Shown: positions 12,903 to 56,292 of the stretch, piece by piece | How positions within the stretch are numbered: position 1 is the first letter of the stretch | Layout: the number at the start of each line of letters is the position of its first letter | Assembly (NCBI GenBank): GCA_027490225.1 | Contig: JAIXYK010000063.1 | Span: forward strand, 1 to 64,000 | Direction of reading: 5' to 3' | Origin: Bacteroidota bacterium | Lineage (GTDB): Bacteria; Bacteroidota; Bacteroidia; M30B66 | DNA length: 64,000 bases | Made by a program: the position numbers and the translations under genes | The notes under the pieces: generated by a model | Seen by the model: only the letters and a program-made list of their open reading frames with translations | What the model was told of the DNA's origin: nothing | Databases searched by the model: none

Positions 12903-14228
12903 ATGAATGAAAACACAAAGCCCACACTTTCTGAAGTTTTAACATCTCTTTCTATTGCTAAGTTGAATCCCATGCAGGAGGCGGTATTAGCTAGAGATAA
13001 AAAAGAACAAAATCTAATTTTACTTTCACCCACTGGAACCGGTAAAACGCTGGCTTTTTTGCTTAGGGTGTTAGAACAAATGCAATATGATAAACCTGGC
13101 GTTCAAGCAATAATTATTGCTCCAGCCAGGGAATTAGTATTGCAAATAGAAGATGTATTCAGAATGATGAAAACAGGCTTCAAAGTTTGCGTTTGTTATG
13201 GTGGACACAATGTTAGAACAGAGCAACAACGATTAGAAGAAGCGCCGGCATTAGTGATTGGAACTCCAGGTAGACTTTCTGACCACATTCAAAAAGGATT
13301 GATTGATGCAGCAACCATCACCATGGTAGTTTTAGATGAGTTCGACAAAGCCTTAGAAATGGGCTTTCATGAGCAATTACAAGTAATTTTTATGGCGATG
13401 AATAACCGCCAGAAACACCTGTTAACCTCAGCAACTATATTGAAAGAAATGCCAGCATTTATGCCTTTTAGAAAAGCAGAGACGCTAAATTTTTTAAAGG
13501 AAGCTGAAGCTATTAAACTGGAGTTAAAAATGGCCAGGTGCAAGGCGGAAGAAAAAACTGAAGCCTTAGTAAAACTATTATGCAGTTTTGGAGACGATGT
13601 GAGCCTTGTATTTTGTAATCACAGAGATGCTGTAGAAAGAATTGGCACCTTTTTAAAGCAAGTGAATTTCCCGAATGGAATTTTTCATGGTGCCATGGAA
13701 CAGATTGACCGCGAGCGAAACCTGATTAAATTTAGGTTGGGAGGTTGTAATGTGCTAATTGCAACCGATTTGGCAGCACGCGGTTTAGACATACCAGAAA
13801 TAAAAAATGTGGTACATTATCAATTACCGCAAAGTGAAGATGCTTTTATACACAGAAATGGCCGCACAGCAAGAATGCATGCCGAAGGAGAGGCTTTTCT
13901 AATCTTAGCAGATGATGAAGAGTTACCTGCTTACATGGATAAAAAAATACCCGAAATAACGTTAAATGCAACTTTTAAACTTCCTGCTCCTCCCCCATTT
14001 GAATGCATCTATTTTTCGGCAGGCAAAAAAGATAAAATAAGCAAAGGAGATATTGTTGGACTTTTAATGAAAAAAGGTGACTTAAAAAATGAGGAAATCG
14101 GTTTGATTGCTATTACTGATGCTGCCTCTTTTGTAGCTGTTGACAGAAAAAAAGCTAATCAACTCTTAAATAAGTTAAAAGGCGAAAAGTTGAAAAAAGC
14201 GAAGGTTAAGGTCGAAATTGCTAAGTAA
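12903..14228 (+). CDS. DEAD-box RNA helicase, DbpA-like
   Basis: ATP-dependent RNA unwinding, likely in ribosome assembly. The 441-aa protein shows motif Q (LNPMQEAVL), motif I SPTGTGKT, Ia PARELVLQ, Ib TPGRL, motif II as DEFD instead of DEAD, motif III SAT, and in the second RecA domain ATDLAARGLDIPEI and HRNGRTARM. The last 75 residues (SKGDIVGLLMKKGDL onward) look like the DbpA RNA-binding domain that in E. coli recognises 23S rRNA hairpin 92. The start is fixed by a -7 promoter element four bases upstream. A DEFD version of motif II seems usual in Bacteroidota members as far as I recall. Confidence 0.9.
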   Translation: MNENTKPTLSEVLTSLSIAKLNPMQEAVLARDKKEQNLILLSPTGTGKTLAFLLRVLEQMQYDKPGVQAIIIAPARELVLQIEDVFRMMKTGFKVCVCYGGHNVRTEQQRLEEAPALVIGTPGRLSDHIQKGLIDAATITMVVLDEFDKALEMGFHEQLQVIFMAMNNRQKHLLTSATILKEMPAFMPFRKAETLNFLKEAEAIKLELKMARCKAEEKTEALVKLLCSFGDDVSLVFCNHRDAVERIGTFLKQVNFPNGIFHGAMEQIDRERNLIKFRLGGCNVLIATDLAARGLDIPEIKNVVHYQLPQSEDAFIHRNGRTARMHAEGEAFLILADDEELPAYMDKKIPEITLNATFKLPAPPPFECIYFSAGKKDKISKGDIVGLLMKKGDLKNEEIGLIAITDAASFVAVDRKKANQLLNKLKGEKLKKAKVKVEIAK

Positions 14229-14269: not shown

Positions 14270-14349
14270 GCAGCAGGGATTGAGCGGAAAGCCCGAAGCG
14301 CGAGGTTTGTGTGCCAGCCGGACTTGGAGAGAAAGCCCGTTTGCTGCCC
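14270..14349 (-). repeat. GC-rich intergenic element A
   Basis: An 80-bp GC-rich island between two convergent genes in AT-rich surroundings. The ends pair (GCAGCA at 14270-14275 with TGCTGC at 14342-14347), and GAAAGCCCG is present twice (14287-14295, 14331-14339). Read on the minus strand it begins GGGCAGC and ends in TTTCCGCTCAATCCCTGCTGC-like order, the same plan as elements B (47172) and C (54351). It may be a REP-like or structured-RNA repeat. Confidence 0.65.
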
Positions 14350-14418: not shown

Positions 14419-15225
14419 TTACTGAACTATCAATTTTTGGGTTCTACAACTTCCATTTTTTTCTGAGATTCGGATGTAATAAATACCTTTTCTATCTAGG
14501 TCAATTTGGGTAGAAGAATTAAAGTTTGTTTGATTTAAGATTTCTTCTCCTAAGGAATTAAAGATGTTAATTGTGCGAAATGCGAGAGTTTTAAAGTTAA
14601 TTGTAGAGGAACCATCTGTTGGGTTCGGAAACAATTCAAAGTTACTATTAGCTAAATCATTTGTAGTAACTGTACTAATAAATTCAGCTTCAATCCAATT
14701 AGTTATTGCAGTATCTCTTGGAACAGTTGTGCTTGGAAAATGCCTTACATAGTTACCATCTGGATCTATGAGAAATTTATGAAAATTCCATGTTACTTGT
14801 GCATCTTCCACACCATTTAATTCGCCTCTTTGCAGCCATTTGTAAACTTCGGCAGTGTCGCCAGTTTTAATATCTACACGTGACATCATTTGAAAGGTAA
14901 CACCATAATTTCCCGTACAAAAATCAATTATGGTAGAATCAGAACCAGGTTCTTGGCTCCCAAAGTTATTGCATGGAAAACCTAAAATTTCGAATTGACC
15001 GTCTCCATAAATATCATACAAACCCTGCAAATCTTCATATTGGTAAGTATATGCGCAAAAGCTTGCGGTGTTTACAACTAACAACTTCTTTCCAGCATAT
15101 TGTGAAAATGAGATGGTATCACCTTGAATCGTTACGCCGGTAAAATCATGGAAATTCGCTAATTGTTGCGATTTACCTGCAAAAGTAAAAGCGATTAAAA
15201 ACAAGATTGTAGTTGTTATTTTCAT
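14419..15225 (-). CDS. Secreted glutathione peroxidase-family protein with T9SS sorting domain
   Basis: Thiol peroxidase that reduces hydroperoxides. The signal peptide (about residues 1-19) is followed by a complete GPx fold: NTASFCAYTYQYE with peroxidatic Cys57, ILGFPCNNFGSQEPG (Cys86), a further Cys104 and the WNFHKFLIDPDG segment with the Trp/Asn of the active site. The C-terminal 80 residues (FELFPNPTDGSSTINF to RTQKLIVQ) are a type A sorting domain for type IX secretion. So the enzyme is predicted to be exported to the cell surface or medium, unlike usual cytosolic or periplasmic GPx. The donor is more likely thioredoxin-like than glutathione. It is a lone gene with a shared terminator downstream. 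Confidence 0.9.
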   Translation of the reverse strand: MKITTTILFLIAFTFAGKSQQLANFHDFTGVTIQGDTISFSQYAGKKLLVVNTASFCAYTYQYEDLQGLYDIYGDGQFEILGFPCNNFGSQEPGSDSTIIDFCTGNYGVTFQMMSRVDIKTGDTAEVYKWLQRGELNGVEDAQVTWNFHKFLIDPDGNYVRHFPSTTVPRDTAITNWIEAEFISTVTTNDLANSNFELFPNPTDGSSTINFKTLAFRTINIFNSLGEEILNQTNFNSSTQIDLDRKGIYYIRISEKNGSCRTQKLIVQ

Positions 15226-34119: not shown

Positions 34120-36609
34120 TTAGTTCACTACGGAACTCAACTTCTCCTTTTTAGGAACTGCAATCTTAATTGGATTCTTCACCTTTTCATTGAGCAGCGC
34201 CAGTCTCAATACTTCTTTCATATTTGAAACATAATGAAAAGTCATTCCTTTTAGATAATCGGCATTGATTTCTTCAATGTCTTTTCTATTTTCTTGTGAA
34301 AGGATTACCTCTTGTATATCTGAGCGTTTTGCAGCTAAAATCTTCTCTTTAATTCCACCAACAGGAAGCACTACACCACGCAAAGTTATTTCGCCAGTCA
34401 TTGCTAATTTCGACTTTATTTTTTTCTGGGTAAATGCAGAGGCTAGTGCTGTAAGCATTGCAATACCTGCCGACGGACCATCTTTTGGAGTTGCGCCTTC
34501 AGGAACGTGAATATGAACGTTGTAATGATCAAATATTTCAGATTCAATACCCAAATATTCTTCAGAATGGGCTTTAAGGAACTCTAAAGCTATTACAGCA
34601 CTTTCTTTCATAACATCACCTAAATTACCTGTTAATGAAAGTTTGCCGTTGCCTTTGCTTAAAAGCGCTTCTATAAATAAAATATCTCCGCCCACTGAAG
34701 TCCAAGCTAAACCTGTAACTACTCCGGCTACTTCATTATTTTCGTATTTATCTCTGTGAAAAGTTGCTGGTCCCATAATTCTGGACACATCTTTCTCATC
34801 AACTTTGCTATCAATTGCTTCTTCCATTGCAACAGATTTGGCAATTGAGCGCATAATTTTAGCAATGCGTTTATCCAAACTCCTAACACCGGATTCTCTT
34901 GTGTAATCTTCGATCAATTTTTCAATCCCTTTCTTGGTGAACTTAACATGAGAAGTTTTCATTCCATGTTCTTTCAATTGTTTCGGAATAAGGTGTTGCT
35001 TGGCTATTTCAACTTTTTCTTCTTGCGTATAACCTGTAACTTCAATAAGCTCCATTCTATCTAATAGGGCAGGCTGAATGTTGCTCAAATTATTTGCTGT
35101 AGCAATAAACATTGCCCTACTTAAATCAAAATCCTGTTCAACATAGTTATCATAGAAAGTACTGTTTTGCTCAGGGTCAAGTACTTCAAGCAATGCTGAT
35201 GATGGGTCTCCGTGAAAATCGCGGCCTACTTTATCAATTTCATCTAAAACGAATACTGGATTTGCTGATTTTACTTTCCTTAGATTCTGAATAATCCTTC
35301 CGGGCATTGCTCCTATGTAAGTTTTTCTGTGCCCACGAATTTCTGCTTCATCACGCACACCGCCTAAAGACATTCTGATGTATTCTCTTCCAAGCGCTTT
35401 TGCAATTGATTTCCCTAGTGAAGTTTTACCAACTCCCGGAGGGCCGTAAAAACACAAAATTGGAGAACGCATGTCACCTTTTAACTTCAATACAGCAAGA
35501 TATTCGAGAATTCTCTCTTTCACTTTTTCAAGGCCATAATGATCCTTATCTAAGATCTTTTGTGCTTTTTTTAGGTCGAAAATATCTTCAGAATACTCGT
35601 TCCAAGGTAATTCCAATAAAAGGTCAAGATAATTTCTTTGCACAGAAAATTCTGCCATATTAGGATTTATTCGTCCTAATTTATCGAGCTCTTTAAAAAA
35701 GTGTTTTTTCACACCTTCGCTCCATTTCTTTGTCTCAGCTTTTACTTTTAACTCTTCTAATTCCTCTTCATAAACGTTTCCACCAAGTTCTTCTTGAATA
35801 GTTTTGAGCTGTTGGTGTAAAAAGTACTCTCTCTGCTGCTGGTCAATATCAATCTTTACTTTGCTTTGAATTTGATTTTTCAATTCAAGCATTTGCAATT
35901 CTTTTGTGATATACGTTAAGACCAGCTCTGCCCTTGCTTTTAAATCGGGCACTTCTAACATCTTTTGTTTATCGGCCATATCGGCATTCATGTTAGAAGA
36001 AATAAAATTGATTAAAAAAGAAGGACTTTCGATATTCTTAATCGCGAAACCTGCCTCCGAAGGAATATTTGGAGATTGCTGAATTATTTGAAGTGACGTA
36101 TCTTTTAAGGAAGAAATCAAAGCCGCAAATTCTTTGTCATTTTTTGCTGGCCTGGTTTCTTCGAAGCCTTTGATGGTTGCTTTCAGATAAGGCTCTGTTT
36201 GAGTTGCTTTATCTAAGCGAAAACGCTTTTTACCTTGGATAATTACAGTAGTATTTCCATCAGGCATTCTAAGCATTTTAACAATCAAAGCAATAGTTCC
36301 AACATTATTTAGGTCATCAAAAGTTGGATCTTCTACAGCCACATCTTTTTGAGAAACTACGCCAATTATTCGATCTGCTTTATAAGCATCTTTAATAAGT
36401 TTAATGCTTTTATCTCTTCCTACTGTTATTGGAATTACAACTCCTGGAAAAAGTACGGTATTTCTTAGCGGCAAAAGTGCCACTTCGGCAGGAATTTGTT
36501 CTGTATTCATTAACTCCTCATCTTCACTTGACATAAGAGGAATAAATTCTGCGTCTTCTTCAATAGGGCTAGAAAAACGTATATTGTTGAAATTTGAAAG
36601 TTCGTTCAT
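34120..36609 (-). CDS. lon: ATP-dependent protease Lon
   Basis: Degrades misfolded and regulatory proteins in the cytosol. The 829-aa protein has the N-terminal substrate domain ([19 protein letters not shown]), the AAA+ module with Walker [10 protein letters not shown] and Walker B FVLDEIDK, and the protease domain with catalytic Ser in [10 protein letters not shown] and Lys in [12 protein letters not shown]. Lengths match family LonA. It faces lipA tail to tail with 21 bases between; no hairpin terminator is evident. Confidence 0.97.
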
Positions 36610-37946: not shown

Positions 37947-38222
37947 TTATTCTTGGTCTAGATTCACCTTACTTTGGTGGTTCTTGTAACGATTGCGGAA
38001 TTTATCAACACGGCCGGCAGTATCAACCATTTTAAACTTACCTGTGTAAAAAGGATGAGATGATGCTGAAATCTCCAACTTCGCAACTGGATATTCATTT
38101 CCATCTTCCCAAATAATCGTTTCTTTTGTAGCAATGCAAGATCTTGTAAGAATTGCTGTTTCGTTAGACATATCTTTAAATACAACTAAACGGTAGTTAC
38201 TTGGGTGGATATCTGGTTTCAT
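37947..38222 (-). CDS. rpmE2: Ribosomal protein L31 type B
   Basis: A 91-aa large-subunit protein: [20 protein letters not shown] at the start, then [11 protein letters not shown] and [14 protein letters not shown]. It lacks the CxxC pairs of zinc-binding L31, so it is the zinc-independent type B form, which seems to be the usual single copy in Bacteroidota. It has its own terminator downstream. Confidence 0.97.
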
Positions 38223-38328
38223 GATATTTCTTTGCTAAAATTGGACGGCAAAAGTATTTTAATTTATTGATTTATGCAAGTAGTAAAACAAGAATATTTT
38301 GGAGATTAAGTTTTTTCAATAAAATTGA

Positions 38329-39735: not shown

Positions 39736-40788
39736 ATGAATTCATTTTTCGAAAAAGATAGAGTTAACAGGGCTTTGGCTATAGCTTCTCTCATATTATT
39801 TGGTGCCTTACTCGTTTATCTGCTTCGAGATTTTGTGAATGCATTCCTAGGAGCAGTTATTTTTTACCTGCTTTTTAAATCGTTTATGGTTTATTTAACT
39901 GAGAAAAGAAATTGGAAACCAAGTCTTGCAGCCTCAGTAATTATCATTTTATCTTTTCTAATTGTATTATTACCTGTGCTCTCAACAGCATTTATGGTTT
40001 ATTCCAAAGTTAGCGCAATTGCTTCAAATCCAGATACTGTGTTAGTTATGTTTGAAAATTTAAACACAAAGGTTAAAACTTTAACAGGCGAAGAATTATT
40101 AACATCAGACAGAATCAAGTCAATACAACAATCAGCTGGAGGCCTCATCACCGATTTCATAAGTACAGCTTTCGCCATAGTTGCTCAAATTGGAATTATG
40201 TATTTCTTACTTTACTATCTGCTTATCAATCACAATAAAACTGAGGTATCACTTTCTAAGATTTTACCTATTAGTAGTAGAAGCAGTCTCGTATTGTATC
40301 ATGAATTGCAAACCATGACATTCTCAAATGCCATAACAGTTCCGCTTTTAGCAATTATTCAAGGATTGGCTGCTTGGTTAGGCTTTTGGTTTTTTGGTGT
40401 GGAGGAGCCTTTTTTCTGGGCAATAATGCTCGCCTTATTTTCTATCATTCCTTTAGTTGGAACTGCAATAATTTGGGGCCCGGTTGGCCTTTTTTTAATA
40501 GCCTCTGCCGAAACATGGCAAGGTGTTGGGCTTCTTGTATACAGCGCTGCAATAATTACAAATATTGATAATGTTTTTAGGTTTATTATTCAGAAAAAAT
40601 TCGCCGAAGTACACCCGATCATAACAGTATTAGGAGTAATAATTGGCTTGAATTTATTTGGTTTACCAGGATTAATTTTTGGCCCATTACTGATTTCTTA
40701 CTTTTTGATATTCATAAAAATGTACCAAAAAGAGTATTTGGAAGCTGTTGACGAAGATTTAAAAATAGAAACTTCAGCTGAAAAATGA
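39736..40788 (+). CDS. AI-2E family transporter
   Basis: A 350-aa inner-membrane protein from ATG 39736 (the frame is open from 39706). It has the typical layout: two N-terminal spans (ALAIASLILFGALLVYLLR), a cytoplasmic linker and five or six C-terminal spans with IQGLAAWLGFWFFGVEEPFFW, SIIPLVGTAIIWGP and the LGVIIGLNLFGLPGLIFGPLL motif that defines the family. Members export autoinducer-2 or act as Na+/H+ antiporters; no substrate can be assigned here. It overlaps the following gene as ATGA. Confidence 0.9.
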   Translation: MNSFFEKDRVNRALAIASLILFGALLVYLLRDFVNAFLGAVIFYLLFKSFMVYLTEKRNWKPSLAASVIIILSFLIVLLPVLSTAFMVYSKVSAIASNPDTVLVMFENLNTKVKTLTGEELLTSDRIKSIQQSAGGLITDFISTAFAIVAQIGIMYFLLYYLLINHNKTEVSLSKILPISSRSSLVLYHELQTMTFSNAITVPLLAIIQGLAAWLGFWFFGVEEPFFWAIMLALFSIIPLVGTAIIWGPVGLFLIASAETWQGVGLLVYSAAIITNIDNVFRFIIQKKFAEVHPIITVLGVIIGLNLFGLPGLIFGPLLISYFLIFIKMYQKEYLEAVDEDLKIETSAEK

Positions 40789-44937: not shown

Positions 44938-45120
44938 ATGAGCAATTCTGAATTTTCTAGGCTTTCAAAATTAGATGCAGATGAATATTATTACACCCCA
45001 GAAGGGTATGTAGTATTTACCGAAAAATACCTTTTAAAACGCGGGTATTGCTGCCAGAACGGTTGCAGACATTGTCCTTATGGTTTTAATAAAAGCAAAG
45101 GTCGAATTGATAAAAAATAA
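44938..45120 (+). CDS. DUF5522 cysteine-rich small protein
   Basis: A roughly 60-aa protein with the DUF5522 motif YYYTPEGYVVFTEKYLLKRG followed by CCQNGCRHCPYGF, which has four cysteines and a histidine that could bind zinc or an iron-sulfur cluster. ATG 44938 is preferred over 44920 because a TTTGC promoter-like segment (44926-44930) lies between them. The start of hutU follows the stop by four bases, so it is cotranscribed with hutU. The function is unknown. Confidence 0.85.
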   Translation: MSNSEFSRLSKLDADEYYYTPEGYVVFTEKYLLKRGYCCQNGCRHCPYGFNKSKGRIDKK

Positions 45121-45124
45121 TACA

Positions 45125-47149
45125 ATGATTCAGGAAATTACCAAAGAAAATATCGCAGCATTTAAGGCTTCAATTGTTGCAGGAATACCAAGTGAATTGC
45201 CAGTTAAGCAAGACATTGATTCCTCTTTAAGTCACGCTCCGAAAAGGAAAGCAATTTTAAACAAAGAAGAGAAAACACTCGCTTTGAAAAATGCGCTCCG
45301 TTATTTTCCTTCTAAATTTCATTCAACTTTAGCTCAAGAATTTAATGAAGAATTAACAAAGTATGGAAGAATTTATATGCATCGTTTTAGACCTGCATAT
45401 GAAATGTTTGCAAGACCAATTGAACATTATCCAGCAAAATGCAAGCAAGCAGCGGCCATCATGTTAATGATTCAAAACAATCTCGACCCTGCTGTTGCGC
45501 AACATCCGCATGAGCTAATTACATACGGCGGAAATGGTGCGGTATTTCAAAATTGGGCGCAATATCTTTTATGCATGCAATACCTAAGCGAAATGGAAGA
45601 AGACCAAACATTAGTAATGTATTCGGGCCACCCAATGGGCTTGTTTCCTTCTCACAAAGATGCGCCACGAGTAGTAGTTACCAATGGAATGATGATACCC
45701 AATTATTCTAAACCTGATGATTGGGAAAAATTCAATGCTTTAGGCGTAACACAGTACGGACAAATGACTGCAGGTTCGTATATGTATATTGGCCCGCAAG
45801 GAATTGTGCATGGAACTACTATTACAGTGATGAATGCGGCGAGAAAGATTTCTGGTAGCAATGATTTTAAAGGAATGTTATTCGTTACATCCGGACTTGG
45901 TGGCATGAGCGGAGCGCAACCCAAAGCAGCTAAAATTGCAGGATTAGTAAGTATTACTGCAGAAATCAATAGCACCGCGGCGCGTAAAAGACACAGTCAA
46001 GGTTGGGTAGACGAAATACATTCGGATGTAAATGAAGCAATTAATAGCGCTGAAAATGCCCGAAACAAAGGAGAAGCACTTTCTATTGCATACGAAGGAA
46101 ACGTCATCGAATTGTGGGAAGCGCTTGTTGCCCGAAACATTCATGTAAACATTGGTTCTGATCAAACATCTTTACATAATCCTTTTGCTGGTGGTTACTA
46201 TCCAATTGGTTTTACATATGAACAAGCGAATGAAATGATGGCAAATTCGCCCGAGAAGTTTAAAGAAGAAGTTTATTCAAGTTTGAAAAGACACACTTCA
46301 GCCATTAATACCTTAACTACCAAAGGAATGTACTTCTTCGATTATGGAAATGCATTCTTGTTAGAATCTTCCCGAGCAGGTGCAGATGTAAAAGGAACTA
46401 CGCAAGAATTTAGGTATCCATCATATGTGCAAGATATACTTGGCCCCATGTGTTTTGATTATGGCTTTGGACCTTTTAGATGGGTGTGTTGTTCAGGAAA
46501 TTCAGCAGATTTAGCAACTACCGACAGATTAGCAGCAGAAGTTTTAGAAGAATTGTTAAAAGATGCGTCCCCAGAAATTTATGGACAAATAAACGATAAC
46601 CTGCAATGGATAAAATCTGCGAACGACAATAAATTGGTGGTTGGCTCACAGGCCAGAATTCTTTATGCAGATGCAGTTGGAAGAATGAAAATTGCACAAC
46701 GTTTTAACCAAGCTATTGCAGCGGGAGAAATAAAAGGTGAAATTGTTTTAGGACGCGACCACCATGATGTATCGGGAACAGATTCTCCTTACAGAGAAAC
46801 CTCCAATATTTATGATGGAAGTCGTTTTACAGCTGATATGGCGGTGCAAAATTTTGCAGGTGACGCTTTTAGAGGTGCCACATGGATTTCTTTGCACAAT
46901 GGTGGTGGTGTTGGTTGGGGTGAGGTAATAAATGGAGGCTTCGGTTTGGTGATTGATGGCAGCGAAGACAGCGAAAGGCGTTTACTTTCTATGTTGCATT
47001 GGGACGTAAACAATGGCGTAGCCCGAAGAGCCTGGGCAAGAAATACAGGTGCACTTTCAGCCATAAAAGCAGCAATGGACATTGAACCGAAATTAAAAAT
47101 CACACTCCCGAATTTGGTGGATGAAGTGGATTTGAATGGGTTGATTTAG
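45125..47149 (+). CDS. hutU: Urocanate hydratase
   Basis: Hydrates urocanate to imidazolonepropionate in histidine degradation, using bound NAD+. The 674-aa protein is longer than the Pseudomonas enzyme (about 557 aa), as in Bacteroidota, with an N-terminal extension (to about residue 110) and an insert. Family motifs are YGGNGAVFQNWAQYLL, VVTNGMMIPNYS, GPQGIVHGTTITV, VTSGLGGMSGAQPKAA and the active-site Cys segment FRWVCCSGN with GRDHHDVSG. The ATG 45125 is four bases after the DUF5522 gene. Other hut genes are not in the window. Confidence 0.95.
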   Translation: MIQEITKENIAAFKASIVAGIPSELPVKQDIDSSLSHAPKRKAILNKEEKTLALKNALRYFPSKFHSTLAQEFNEELTKYGRIYMHRFRPAYEMFARPIEHYPAKCKQAAAIMLMIQNNLDPAVAQHPHELITYGGNGAVFQNWAQYLLCMQYLSEMEEDQTLVMYSGHPMGLFPSHKDAPRVVVTNGMMIPNYSKPDDWEKFNALGVTQYGQMTAGSYMYIGPQGIVHGTTITVMNAARKISGSNDFKGMLFVTSGLGGMSGAQPKAAKIAGLVSITAEINSTAARKRHSQGWVDEIHSDVNEAINSAENARNKGEALSIAYEGNVIELWEALVARNIHVNIGSDQTSLHNPFAGGYYPIGFTYEQANEMMANSPEKFKEEVYSSLKRHTSAINTLTTKGMYFFDYGNAFLLESSRAGADVKGTTQEFRYPSYVQDILGPMCFDYGFGPFRWVCCSGNSADLATTDRLAAEVLEELLKDASPEIYGQINDNLQWIKSANDNKLVVGSQARILYADAVGRMKIAQRFNQAIAAGEIKGEIVLGRDHHDVSGTDSPYRETSNIYDGSRFTADMAVQNFAGDAFRGATWISLHNGGGVGWGEVINGGFGLVIDGSEDSERRLLSMLHWDVNNGVARRAWARNTGALSAIKAAMDIEPKLKITLPNLVDEVDLNGLI

Positions 47150-47171: not shown

Positions 47172-47279
47172 GGGCCTGCCACTCCGCAAGCTCCGTGTCG
47201 CGCTTTCGTTGCAAGTCCTCGAACCTCATTCTTCGGTTCTGCGGGCTTTTTACTCCAATCGCTCAGGCCAGCATTGTAA
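47172..47279 (+). repeat. GC-rich intergenic element B
   Basis: A 108-bp GC-rich island between hutU and a toxin-antitoxin pair. The ends pair (GGCCTG at 47173-47178 with CAGGCC at 47274-47279), and an inner hairpin GAACC/GGTTC is at 47221-47239. CGCTTTCG and CGGGCTTTTTACTCCAATC segments occur in the same order as in elements A and C. Confidence 0.65.
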
Positions 47280-52851: not shown

Positions 52852-54267
52852 TTAATCAATTTTATTTTTAATATATACAGAGTAATCTCCACTTGGGAAT
52901 TTTGTGTTGTATTTTTTATAAAATACCAAAGCAGCATCTTTTCCTAAATGCAACTCGGCAGCTGCTGCCACATAAAAAGCTATACTTTCATTTTCAGGAA
53001 AACGCTCTAATTGTTTTTTTGTATAAGTAAACAAGAATTTTCCTAAATCTGGCGCTTTTGTTTTATCGAAAAACAATTTTAGCCTTGCCATATCTGCAGA
53101 TTTATTCACTTCTACTTTCCCCAAAAAATCGTTCATCACACCATTTTCTTTTAAACGACTTAACCAAAATAAGTTTTTTACAATCATTACTTCCGCTGTT
53201 TCACTTGTAGGATTTTTCTCTTTTAATTTCAGAGATAAAAGCAATGCTGTTATATATTCACCTTCTAGATATGCATTTTCTACTGTTTCGAATTCTGCTT
53301 TTCTTTTCAAATTAGCAAACTCAGTATTGTCCAATTTCGCAGGCTCCTTATATTCAATAGAAGTTAAAATTTCTTTAACTGCCAAAATTCGTTTTTCACC
53401 ATCTGGATGCGTCTCGTACTCAACATCTCCCAACTTTAGTAAAGATTTGCTTCTAGAGACAGACTTATTCAACTCCTTTTTCACATTTTTCTTAGATACT
53501 ATTGCCGTATCAACCGTAAAAACATCTGTATTAAAAAAGTCAGATAAACTTCCTTTCAAAGTATCTTTCTGTTCTTCCATCAAAAATTTCAACGCATTTG
53601 GATATTCAGCTGCATTGTACTTCCCCCCATTTAAAATATTCACAGCACCAGCATCTGATTCAAATTCGTTTTCACGCGAATAACTCAACATTTTAAACAA
53701 TACTCCTTCAGAACTGGTATTGCTATATTTTTGGTCCTTTAAATCCTTATTCTTTTTACGTTGGTTTAAAGCATGTTGCTTTTTATAATGTGTTATTTCA
53801 TGACATAAAATTCCAGCTAACTGACTTTCATTTTCCAAAACATTTAGCAATCCCACATTCACCAAAATAGTTCCATCGGGCAAGCAAAATGCATTTACCT
53901 GCGGATTTCTTGTTAAAAAGACCCTTATTTTTCCTTTCAAAGAACCTTCATTCAACAGCAAATCATCAACAATTTTAGTTAAATAATCAGTTAACTCGTT
54001 CGAAAAATAAAGCTCACCTGTATTTACTCTTTCCTTTAAAATGTAAAAAGAATTTTTATACATTTCTTCCGCTTCCTTTTCATCTAACACATCTTGGTCC
54101 TTTGCTAAATTCTTGGCCAATTTCTCAGCATTATTAAGCAAATATGATGGAACTTGAAAAGGTTTTTCTACAAAAAAATCTGTTTTGTTCTGAGCTTTCG
54201 CTAAGTTAACTAATAAAAAAACCAGTATTACTGGTTTAAGAAATTTACTATACATATTATCTGACAT
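52852..54267 (-). CDS. M48-family zinc metallopeptidase, exported
   Basis: A 471-aa protein with an N-terminal signal (about to residue 26; ATG 54255 is an alternative start four codons in). The catalytic site HEITH is at residues 156-160 (LAGILCHEITHYKK) and the third zinc ligand lies in NEFESDAGAV, the pattern of BepA/LoiP-like peptidases that check outer-membrane proteins. The C-terminal half (from about 300) has helical, tetratricopeptide-like character (AYLEGEYITALLLSLKLKEK). First gene of a three-gene envelope operon. Confidence 0.9.
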   Translation of the reverse strand: MSDNMYSKFLKPVILVFLLVNLAKAQNKTDFFVEKPFQVPSYLLNNAEKLAKNLAKDQDVLDEKEAEEMYKNSFYILKERVNTGELYFSNELTDYLTKIVDDLLLNEGSLKGKIRVFLTRNPQVNAFCLPDGTILVNVGLLNVLENESQLAGILCHEITHYKKQHALNQRKKNKDLKDQKYSNTSSEGVLFKMLSYSRENEFESDAGAVNILNGGKYNAAEYPNALKFLMEEQKDTLKGSLSDFFNTDVFTVDTAIVSKKNVKKELNKSVSRSKSLLKLGDVEYETHPDGEKRILAVKEILTSIEYKEPAKLDNTEFANLKRKAEFETVENAYLEGEYITALLLSLKLKEKNPTSETAEVMIVKNLFWLSRLKENGVMNDFLGKVEVNKSADMARLKLFFDKTKAPDLGKFLFTYTKKQLERFPENESIAFYVAAAAELHLGKDAALVFYKKYNTKFPSGDYSVYIKNKID

Positions 54268-54350: not shown

Positions 54351-54426
54351 GGGCGCCAAACACGCTATCGGCTATACTGCCCCTTTTATTTCATAAAGGG
54401 GCGGTATTTGCCTCTATCGTTGGCGC
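54351..54426 (+). repeat. GC-rich intergenic element C
   Basis: A 76-bp element between two divergent genes. The ends pair perfectly (GCGCCAA at 54353-54359 with TTGGCGC at 54420-54426), and the centre is a 13-bp hairpin (54374-54386 with 54395-54407, one G-T pair, 8-nt loop) whose core is GCCCCTTT/AAAGGGGC. It shares the order of conserved blocks with elements A and B. It is the best-preserved of the three. Confidence 0.7.
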
Positions 54427-54477: not shown

Positions 54478-56292
54478 ATGGTCTTTCGGTTTTTCTGCAT
54501 TTTAATAATCACTTCAACTTCTGTAAATGCCCAAACTGAATGGTGGAGCAATGTAGTTTGGTATCAAATTTTCCCGGAACGTTTTTGCAATGGCGACCCT
54601 ACAAACGACCCAACAATTGGCAGCTTGCTAAATGCCTATCCAAATGATACTATTTCACGTTGGCAAGTTCACCCTTGGACTTCTCAATGGTATGAACTCC
54701 AGGATTATGAAAAACAAAATGGAAAAGATATTTGGTACAACATTCAACGCCGGCGTTACGGTGGAGATATTCAAGGTATCATAAATAAACTACCCTATTT
54801 AAAAGATTTAGGAATTACTGCCATTTATTTTAATCCACTTTTTACAGCTCCATCATCTCATAAATACGATGCCGCATGTTATCACCATATCGATCCACAT
54901 TTTGGTCCTGACCCCGAAGGTGATAAAAAAATGGTAATGCTTGAAAACCCCTCAAAACCAGAAACCTGGGTGTGGACCAAAGCTGATTTATTGGCGCTCG
55001 AAATGATTCAAAAAGCACATCAACTCAACATAAAAGTAATTTTCGATGGCGTATTCAACCACATGGGCCTCAACAGCTTTGCTTTTCAGGATGTAGTTAA
55101 GAATGGACAAAATTCAATTTACAAAGATTGGTTTACCATCAAACAATGGCCCGATAAAGCCACCGGCAAAGAGCTCGAATATGAAGGTTGGTTTGGCGTT
55201 AAAACCTTGCCTGAGTTGCACGAAGACGAAAATGGATTGGTAAAACCAGTAGCCGATTATGTTTTCGCTTGCACCCAACGCTGGATGAATCCATATAATA
55301 AAGGAACTGAAAACGGAATTGACGGTTGGAGACTTGACGTAGCTTACTGCATCAAGCACCAGTTCTGGAAAGATTGGCGGAAATATGTAAAATCCATTAA
55401 TCCATTAGCTTACCTAACTGCCGAAGTGGTTGAGCCAATTGATAAGTTGAAACCGTATTTACAAGGCGACGAATTCGATGCGGTAATGAATTACAATGTT
55501 GGATTTAACATGGCCGACTTTTTTATTGGAGAAAACACCTGCACCGCCGATAAGTTTGATGCTGACCTTGCAGCTTTGCGTACTGCATTTCCTGCTTCAA
55601 TTCAACCAAATGCGCAACAAAATTTATTCGATAGTCATGATACCAATCGCATGACATCAGCCATCGTAAATCAAAACAAAGTGCAATACCGCGATTGGGG
55701 AAAATACTTTGGCTGGTCGCAAGCAAGCAATCCTAACTATAACACAAGAAAACCAAACAAAGCAGAGGATATCATTCAAAATCAAATGCTCGTTTTTCTA
55801 ATGACTTATGTTGGTGCACCAATGCTTTATTATGGAACCGAAGCTGGTATGTGGGGCGCCAACGACCCAGATTGCCGCAAACCAATGATTTGGAAAGATA
55901 AAACGTACGACCCGGAAAACATATTACCTAATCAAACTAAAGCTGCTCAAAGCGATGGGGTGTTTTTTGACGAAGAAAAGTACCAGTTTATTCAAACGCT
56001 CATTCAAACAAGAAACAAATATGCTGCACTTAGAACTGGCAATTTTGAGCGGATTCCAAATTCCGATGCATCAATATTTGCTTATAAAAAAACCAGCACA
56101 GTAGAAAACACATCAGTTATTGTGATATTTAATACAGCTTTCCAAAACAAAAAAATAAATGTCCCATTAAATGATGGTGTACAGCAAATTTTGATAGATA
56201 AAAACTCGAAATTCGCATCCTCAAAAAACGAAACAAATAACTTAGAAATTGCTGCAAAAGGGTTTATGATTTTATTAAATCCAGCAAAATAA
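54478..56292 (+). CDS. Exported GH13 alpha-amylase/neopullulanase-like enzyme
   Basis: Hydrolyses alpha-1,4-glucans or cyclomaltodextrins. The 604-aa protein has a signal peptide (about residues 1-19) and the GH13 regions: DGVFNHMG (region I), GWRLDVAY with nucleophile Asp287 (region II), TAEVVEP with general acid Glu316 and DSHDTNRM with Asp388 (region IV). The WYQIFPERFCNGDP opening and RRRYGGDIQGI are those of neopullulanase/cyclomaltodextrinase members. The exported location suggests degradation of external starch or maltodextrins. No susC/susD genes are adjacent. It is followed within 8 bases by the amidohydrolase gene. Confidence 0.93.
   Translation: MVFRFFCILIITSTSVNAQTEWWSNVVWYQIFPERFCNGDPTNDPTIGSLLNAYPNDTISRWQVHPWTSQWYELQDYEKQNGKDIWYNIQRRRYGGDIQGIINKLPYLKDLGITAIYFNPLFTAPSSHKYDAACYHHIDPHFGPDPEGDKKMVMLENPSKPETWVWTKADLLALEMIQKAHQLNIKVIFDGVFNHMGLNSFAFQDVVKNGQNSIYKDWFTIKQWPDKATGKELEYEGWFGVKTLPELHEDENGLVKPVADYVFACTQRWMNPYNKGTENGIDGWRLDVAYCIKHQFWKDWRKYVKSINPLAYLTAEVVEPIDKLKPYLQGDEFDAVMNYNVGFNMADFFIGENTCTADKFDADLAALRTAFPASIQPNAQQNLFDSHDTNRMTSAIVNQNKVQYRDWGKYFGWSQASNPNYNTRKPNKAEDIIQNQMLVFLMTYVGAPMLYYGTEAGMWGANDPDCRKPMIWKDKTYDPENILPNQTKAAQSDGVFFDEEKYQFIQTLIQTRNKYAALRTGNFERIPNSDASIFAYKKTSTVENTSVIVIFNTAFQNKKINVPLNDGVQQILIDKNSKFASSKNETNNLEIAAKGFMILLNPAK

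Follow-up and report, generated by a model that had tools for sequence, protein, structure and literature searches.

Flavo-1-type palindromes in a Bacteroidota genome and the case for a dispersed, structure-defined mobile DNA

The window analyzed here (a 64,000-nt stretch of a Bacteroidota contig, with a GC content of 34.2%) holds three short palindromic elements, each between open reading frames. Element A, a Flavo-1-type palindrome at 14270 to 14349 on the minus strand (read 14349 to 14270; the Rfam Flavo-1 strand here is plus), is flanked by convergent genes (12903 to 14228, +, and 14419 to 15225, −) and happens to follow an intrinsic terminator, as does the copy on p5482. Its outer stem, GCAGCA/TGCTGC (14347 to 14342 and 14275 to 14270), is preceded by GG and encloses an inner stem, GGG/CCC (14338 to 14336 and 14278 to 14276), without a P2 side arm. 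Element B (47172 to 47269, +), downstream of a gene at 45080 to 47149 (+), has the outer stem GGCCTG/CAGGCC (47173 to 47178 and 47264 to 47269), preceded by a single G, and the inner stem GCG/CGC (47200 to 47202 and 47260 to 47262), with a P2 arm between the stems. Element C (54351 to 54426, +), between divergent genes (52852 to 54267, −, and 54478 to 56292, +), belongs to a divergent type whose single central hairpin is long; its outer stem is GCGCCA/TGGCGC (54353 to 54358 and 54421 to 54426; as read, GG-GCGCCAA ... TTGGCGC), and its inner stem is ACG/CGT (54362 to 54364 and 54418 to 54420). A and B rest on direct reading, a covariance model, and a descriptor, and C on direct reading, the descriptor, its fold, and a subthreshold Rfam match.

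From the initial GGGC, the outer stem begins at the second or third G, and each element then presents an inner 3-bp stem and a central hairpin that has a [CT]NWT[CT] box before it and a CWRY-like box after it. Direct reading confirmed what the first-pass annotation had described for the three: the GGGC start, terminal stems that differ and yet pair, the order of the boxes, and the intergenic position. For B the stem and architecture stood and the proposed end at 47279 did not, the stem closing at 47269 and the last ∼10 nt being flank. All three had also been called GC rich; at 62.5% and 58.8% GC, A and B are indeed the two GC-richest 80-nt stretches of the window, but C (52.5%) only ties with coding peaks.

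A descriptor composed only after the family had been seen (GGGC, a 5-bp outer stem, an inner NNN/NNN' stem, two further inner pairs, and the [CT]NWT[CT] and CWRY-like boxes) matched A, B, and C and nothing else in the window, against a mean of 0.07 and a maximum of 1 in Markov-random windows (n = 60). Because the descriptor postdates sight of the family, genome-wide matches are the stronger evidence. A and B were seeds of the covariance model, and their own scores carry no weight. The model was not seeded with C and did not match it; the membership of C rests on the descriptor, a subthreshold Rfam match, and its fold, which is exactly as predicted on either strand (z of about −6.5). A and B, taken singly, fold no better than shuffled sequence, and comparative evidence therefore carries the case.

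One block, CGGGCTTTCCGCT, led to further GC-rich intergenic copies, and a covariance model built from eight copies, A and B included, gave 68 matches in the 3.77-Mb host genome at E ≤ 1 and 60 at E < 0.1. The family thus did not end with the window: about 60 copies are dispersed through the genome. Nineteen of 40 relatives also contained matches, comprising all 10 genomes of the same family (at E ≤ 0.001, between 2 and 45 copies per genome) and 9 of 30 genomes that represent other families of the class. Old, diverged copies make up the majority.

The unit is about 75 to 165 nt long and runs from GGGC to a final CGC. In the copies compared, TTTT is followed by GGGC and the outer stem, in some copies by a P2 arm (a long hairpin or CCCCTTCGGG), and by NNN and C-T-W-TCC-G-Y; next come the central hairpin, R-C-YNC-W-A-T, NNN', the outer stem, and often GGGCATT. 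The flank profile shows TTT ahead of GGGC and GGGCATT..GTAAA past the element, and some copies lie in close inverted pairs. The inner architecture has the order 3-1-2-3-2-3 (a 3-bp stem, a 1x1 mismatch, 2 bp, a 3x3 loop, 2 bp, and a 3x3 loop leading to the variable hairpin), and this order and the conserved boxes are present in the multispecies alignment and its fold and, by the descriptor, in A, B, and C. The 1x1 mismatch beside the inner stem occurs as either C.T or T.C, depending on the copy (e.g., L094 versus L078), a swap (A.G and G.A on the Flavo-1 strand) that preserves the mismatch instead of repairing it. One long P2 arm (..AAAACAAT..ATTGTTTTGTAAACC), seen in L092, L098, L044 to L046, L048, and L049, accompanies one central hairpin in some of these copies and another in the rest, as if arms had been swapped between copies. 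A second dispersed palindrome, CCATGGGTTAAAACCCATGG-like, occurs near copies (flanks of L046, L088, and L098) and inside the arms of L075 and L093.

Covariation was assessed in two sets. In 71 copies of the host genome placed by sequence boxes alone (a few remain misparsed), two inner-stem pairs were Watson-Crick in 57 and 61 copies, compared with 23.8 ± 3.8 and 31.7 ± 3.2 after shuffling. In an alignment of 83 copies from many species, double-sided changes occupied 216 cells versus 58 in shuffles, and 97.6% of cells paired, falling to 38 to 62% when partners were slid by one to three columns; these pairs lean toward the model because the alignment was made with it, which does not apply to the box-anchored test. 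An independent fold of the same alignment adds pairs absent from the model, e.g., T-W/W-A (TA 43, AT 28). Paired positions therefore change together far beyond shuffled expectation in both sets, compensatory changes recur in the further copies, and the proposal that A, B, and C are relatives in which structure rather than sequence is conserved is borne out across the genome.

The first-pass annotation did not anticipate that this family is already in Rfam, on the opposite strand. At curated thresholds, Rfam reported nothing for A, B, or C in the window. At relaxed thresholds, sibling copies matched Flavo-1 (RF01705) on the strand opposite to GGGC, three of them above the gathering threshold of 42 bits (L047, 45.4; L066:116-187, 43.1; and L033, 42.7). 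C reached 21.5 bits (E = 0.099, − strand), below the threshold, and no match was listed for A or B. The inner architecture and conserved boxes are the same as those of Flavo-1; A, B, and C are, as judged by sequence and predicted structure, members of the same catalogued family as their siblings. The Rfam model differs in ending inside the element, without the outer stem and P2 side arm found here, and misses most copies, A, B, and C among them. The 2010 listing of Flavo-1 reads “RNA? probably; cis-regulatory? probably not” and gives no function (Weinberg et al. 2010; PMC2864571), and no later functional work on Flavo-1 was found in the literature searched. To this entry the present analysis adds the outer stem and side arm, a wider host range with its plasmids, and the argument for mobile DNA.

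Copies extend well beyond chromosomes of the class. Seventy-nine plasmids carry them, from Bacteroides, Phocaeicola, Parabacteroides, Butyricimonas, and Moraxella, the last a gammaproteobacterium and hence a plasmid host outside the Bacteroidota. A near-exact pattern also matches Selenomonas, Anaerovibrio, Treponema sp. JC4, and a planctomycete assembly (L137, L146, L164, L133, and L138), which are Flavo-1-like elements beyond the taxa listed for the family. BLAST against phage records gave no match to the element; the element pattern is present in eight IMG/VR viral contigs (L404 to L411).

Near-identical copies occur at unrelated sites. In Moraxella ovis pMOV1, two copies of 162 nt share 97.6% identity and end at T/GGGC and CGC, although their flanks are unrelated; in a flavobacterial metagenome-assembled genome, a pair of 90-nt copies shares 98.9% identity, again between dissimilar flanks. 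A Moraxella bovoculi plasmid (L308) bears four identical copies in one orientation (35904 to 36066, 36246 to 36408, 38129 to 38291, and 40433 to 40595), which sit inside longer exact repeats of about 280 to 630 bp. Among p5482-like plasmids, similarity to other plasmids stops no more than about 5 nt from the element, a common left flank plus element being joined to different right-hand DNA; the element thus also marks recombination junctions. In p5482 itself (L301:8001-8087), the right-hand DNA continues into plasmids of 7 to 9 kb, suggesting a plasmid fusion there.

Copies lie in T-rich intergenic DNA, usually 5 to 40 nt past the stop codon when the left-hand gene is on the same strand and usually 40 to 120 nt from starts, with no bias in gene orientation (++, 20; +−, 18; −−, 15; −+, 13). 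The ends of 56 + 62 copies showed no excess of the direct repeats that a target-site duplication would leave. Group IIC-like insertion behind terminators was rejected, an upstream hairpin preceding 4.2% of copies versus 8.0% of controls. In the five-species genus of G006, a search for an empty site gave one orthologous region without the element, whose flanks were unalignable to base precision. A GGGC-to-CGC unit, the absence of target duplication, and a T-rich intergenic setting that is not terminator specific together fit transposition of single-stranded DNA. Among 80 named loci, no recurrent neighbor gene was convincing; an apparent cluster of DNA methyltransferases beside copies consisted largely of open reading frames reading through the element. 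A 70-nt sequence 13 nt past one element (right flank of L297) is repeated about 17 times in G006, as a further dispersed repeat.

Rfam files Flavo-1 as an RNA, whereas the evidence here favors DNA. A structured RNA made from the strand opposite GGGC and acting as a small RNA or untranslated-region element would account for the strong covariation in the 83-copy alignment, and on the Flavo-1 strand the purine-rich 3x3 loops (GAA/GGA) could form G.A pairs, while one inner pair is G.U in 9 of 82 sequences and A.C in none. From these two features, the element may fold as a single strand with a preferred strand. Wobble is nevertheless rare and has no strand bias overall: 15 well-aligned pairs comprise 1132 Watson-Crick cells, 12 G.T cells, and 14 A.C cells, so neither strand prefers it. 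Set against the expectation for RNA rather than a measured RNA set, this near absence of wobble intermediates, where double changes are common, favors DNA. In Flavobacterium psychrophilum, some Flavo-1 hits overlap 5' transcribed regions, but the hits show no preference for the sense or the antisense strand of transcribed regions, and many are found beyond such regions altogether (PMC9723704). Together with the lack of orientation preference relative to genes, the dozens of dispersed, diverged copies, the moved near-identical copies, and carriage on plasmids, this makes DNA the favored form and an RNA unlikely.

With single-stranded DNA as the probable functional form, attention turns to the enzyme. 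The family resembles REP, BIME, and REPIN sequences in being dispersed, intergenic, palindromic, present in many copies, and sometimes in close inverted pairs. REPs are typically 20 to 40 bp long; Flavo-1 is three to five times longer, branched, and without a consistent RAYT partner. At the foot of the hairpin, the Flavo-1 flank profile shows neither the GT[AG]G tag nor its alternative CGTC, and no conserved GTAG-like tetranucleotide was present in the copies. In a 2018 survey, transposases of TnpA-REP subclass 2.6, a mostly Bacteroidetes subclass, had “atypical secondary structures” on their flanks, and these structures recurred at other places in the genome (PMC6006769), as would be expected were the copies ordinary REPs of Bacteroidota RAYTs of this subclass or others. 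A matching REP-associated transposase had been suggested at the outset, and the result is mixed. In copy-bearing genomes, a copy lies within about 500 bp of 5 of 29 Y1_Tnp genes (4 independent loci, two sites being orthologous), against an expectation of 0.09, or about 0.4 with a fivefold intergenic bias (P of about 0.001). For a REPtron, in which palindromes flank a RAYT gene, this proximity above chance is suggestive but not consistent: the remaining Y1_Tnp loci have no copy nearby, nor do 20 additional loci chosen as probable group 2.x RAYTs. Nor does copy number track transposases: Y1_Tnp was not detected in G006, G001, and G023, which have 39, 26, and 9 copies, and G038 has 12 or more Y1_Tnp hits and zero copies. 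A search of the host genome for a group 2.4-like RAYT found none; the only clear Y1 transposase there (G000:C62:89062-89406; L032 and L293; DHVH ... YIANQEEHH) is subclass 1.2-like and has a Flavo-1 copy 308 bp away, yet is bracketed by its own, different hairpins, AACCCCGAAGGGGT. These hairpins are a separate repeat family, which also occurs downstream of several Flavo-1 copies. An ordinary REP/RAYT pairing is therefore distinctly improbable.

Folded sites of a site-specific recombinase exchanging DNA modules, akin to integron attC, would suit the homology breaks in p5482-like plasmids, the serine recombinase gene that ends at the element in rep_cluster_663 plasmids, the four identical same-orientation copies in M. 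bovoculi, and attC-like conservation of structure over sequence in short palindromes that often lie just past stop codons and at plasmid module junctions, but this is very doubtful, as the chromosomal copies are scattered in both orientations and not in arrays, the ends differ and the attC core motif was not seen, neither an integrase nor cassette arrays occurred in the neighborhoods examined, and the recombinase, which among the loci examined lies beside no chromosomal copy, could simply be a plasmid resolvase of the ordinary kind. MITEs are likewise short, noncoding mobile repeats with inverted ends; Flavo-1 differs in that no target-site duplication was found and no parent transposon was identified.

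We therefore consider it probable that A, B, and C belong to a dispersed, noncoding, REP-like mobile DNA palindrome that moves as folded single-stranded DNA. In the folded strand, the outer stem would be followed by a variable side hairpin in some copies, then by a short inner stem and a pair of symmetric 3x3 loops, with a central hairpin that varies between copies, and a trans-acting enzyme would recognize this form. The folded strand would then be copied or moved into T-rich intergenic DNA with no duplication of the target. The mover may be a trans-acting single-stranded DNA transposase (HUH/Y1-like) or a similar nuclease. Points against this reading are that the orthologous region compared gave no base-precise empty site, that copy number and Y1_Tnp number do not correspond, that no GTAG-like tetranucleotide is conserved, and that old, diverged copies prevail. 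For the family as a whole, we propose more tentatively, at a little under an even chance, that Flavo-1 is no RNA but a branched, structure-defined mobile DNA, moved as a single strand by a trans-acting enzyme, that has spread through the Bacteroidota and into plasmids and genomes of other phyla.

If Flavo-1 is mobile DNA, its Rfam entry and the small-RNA annotations that derive from it need revising, and its function becomes testable by seeking the enzyme able to bind or cleave the folded strand. Flavo-1 would then represent a new class of branched, covarying mobile palindromes, and covariation alone would be no proof of RNA.
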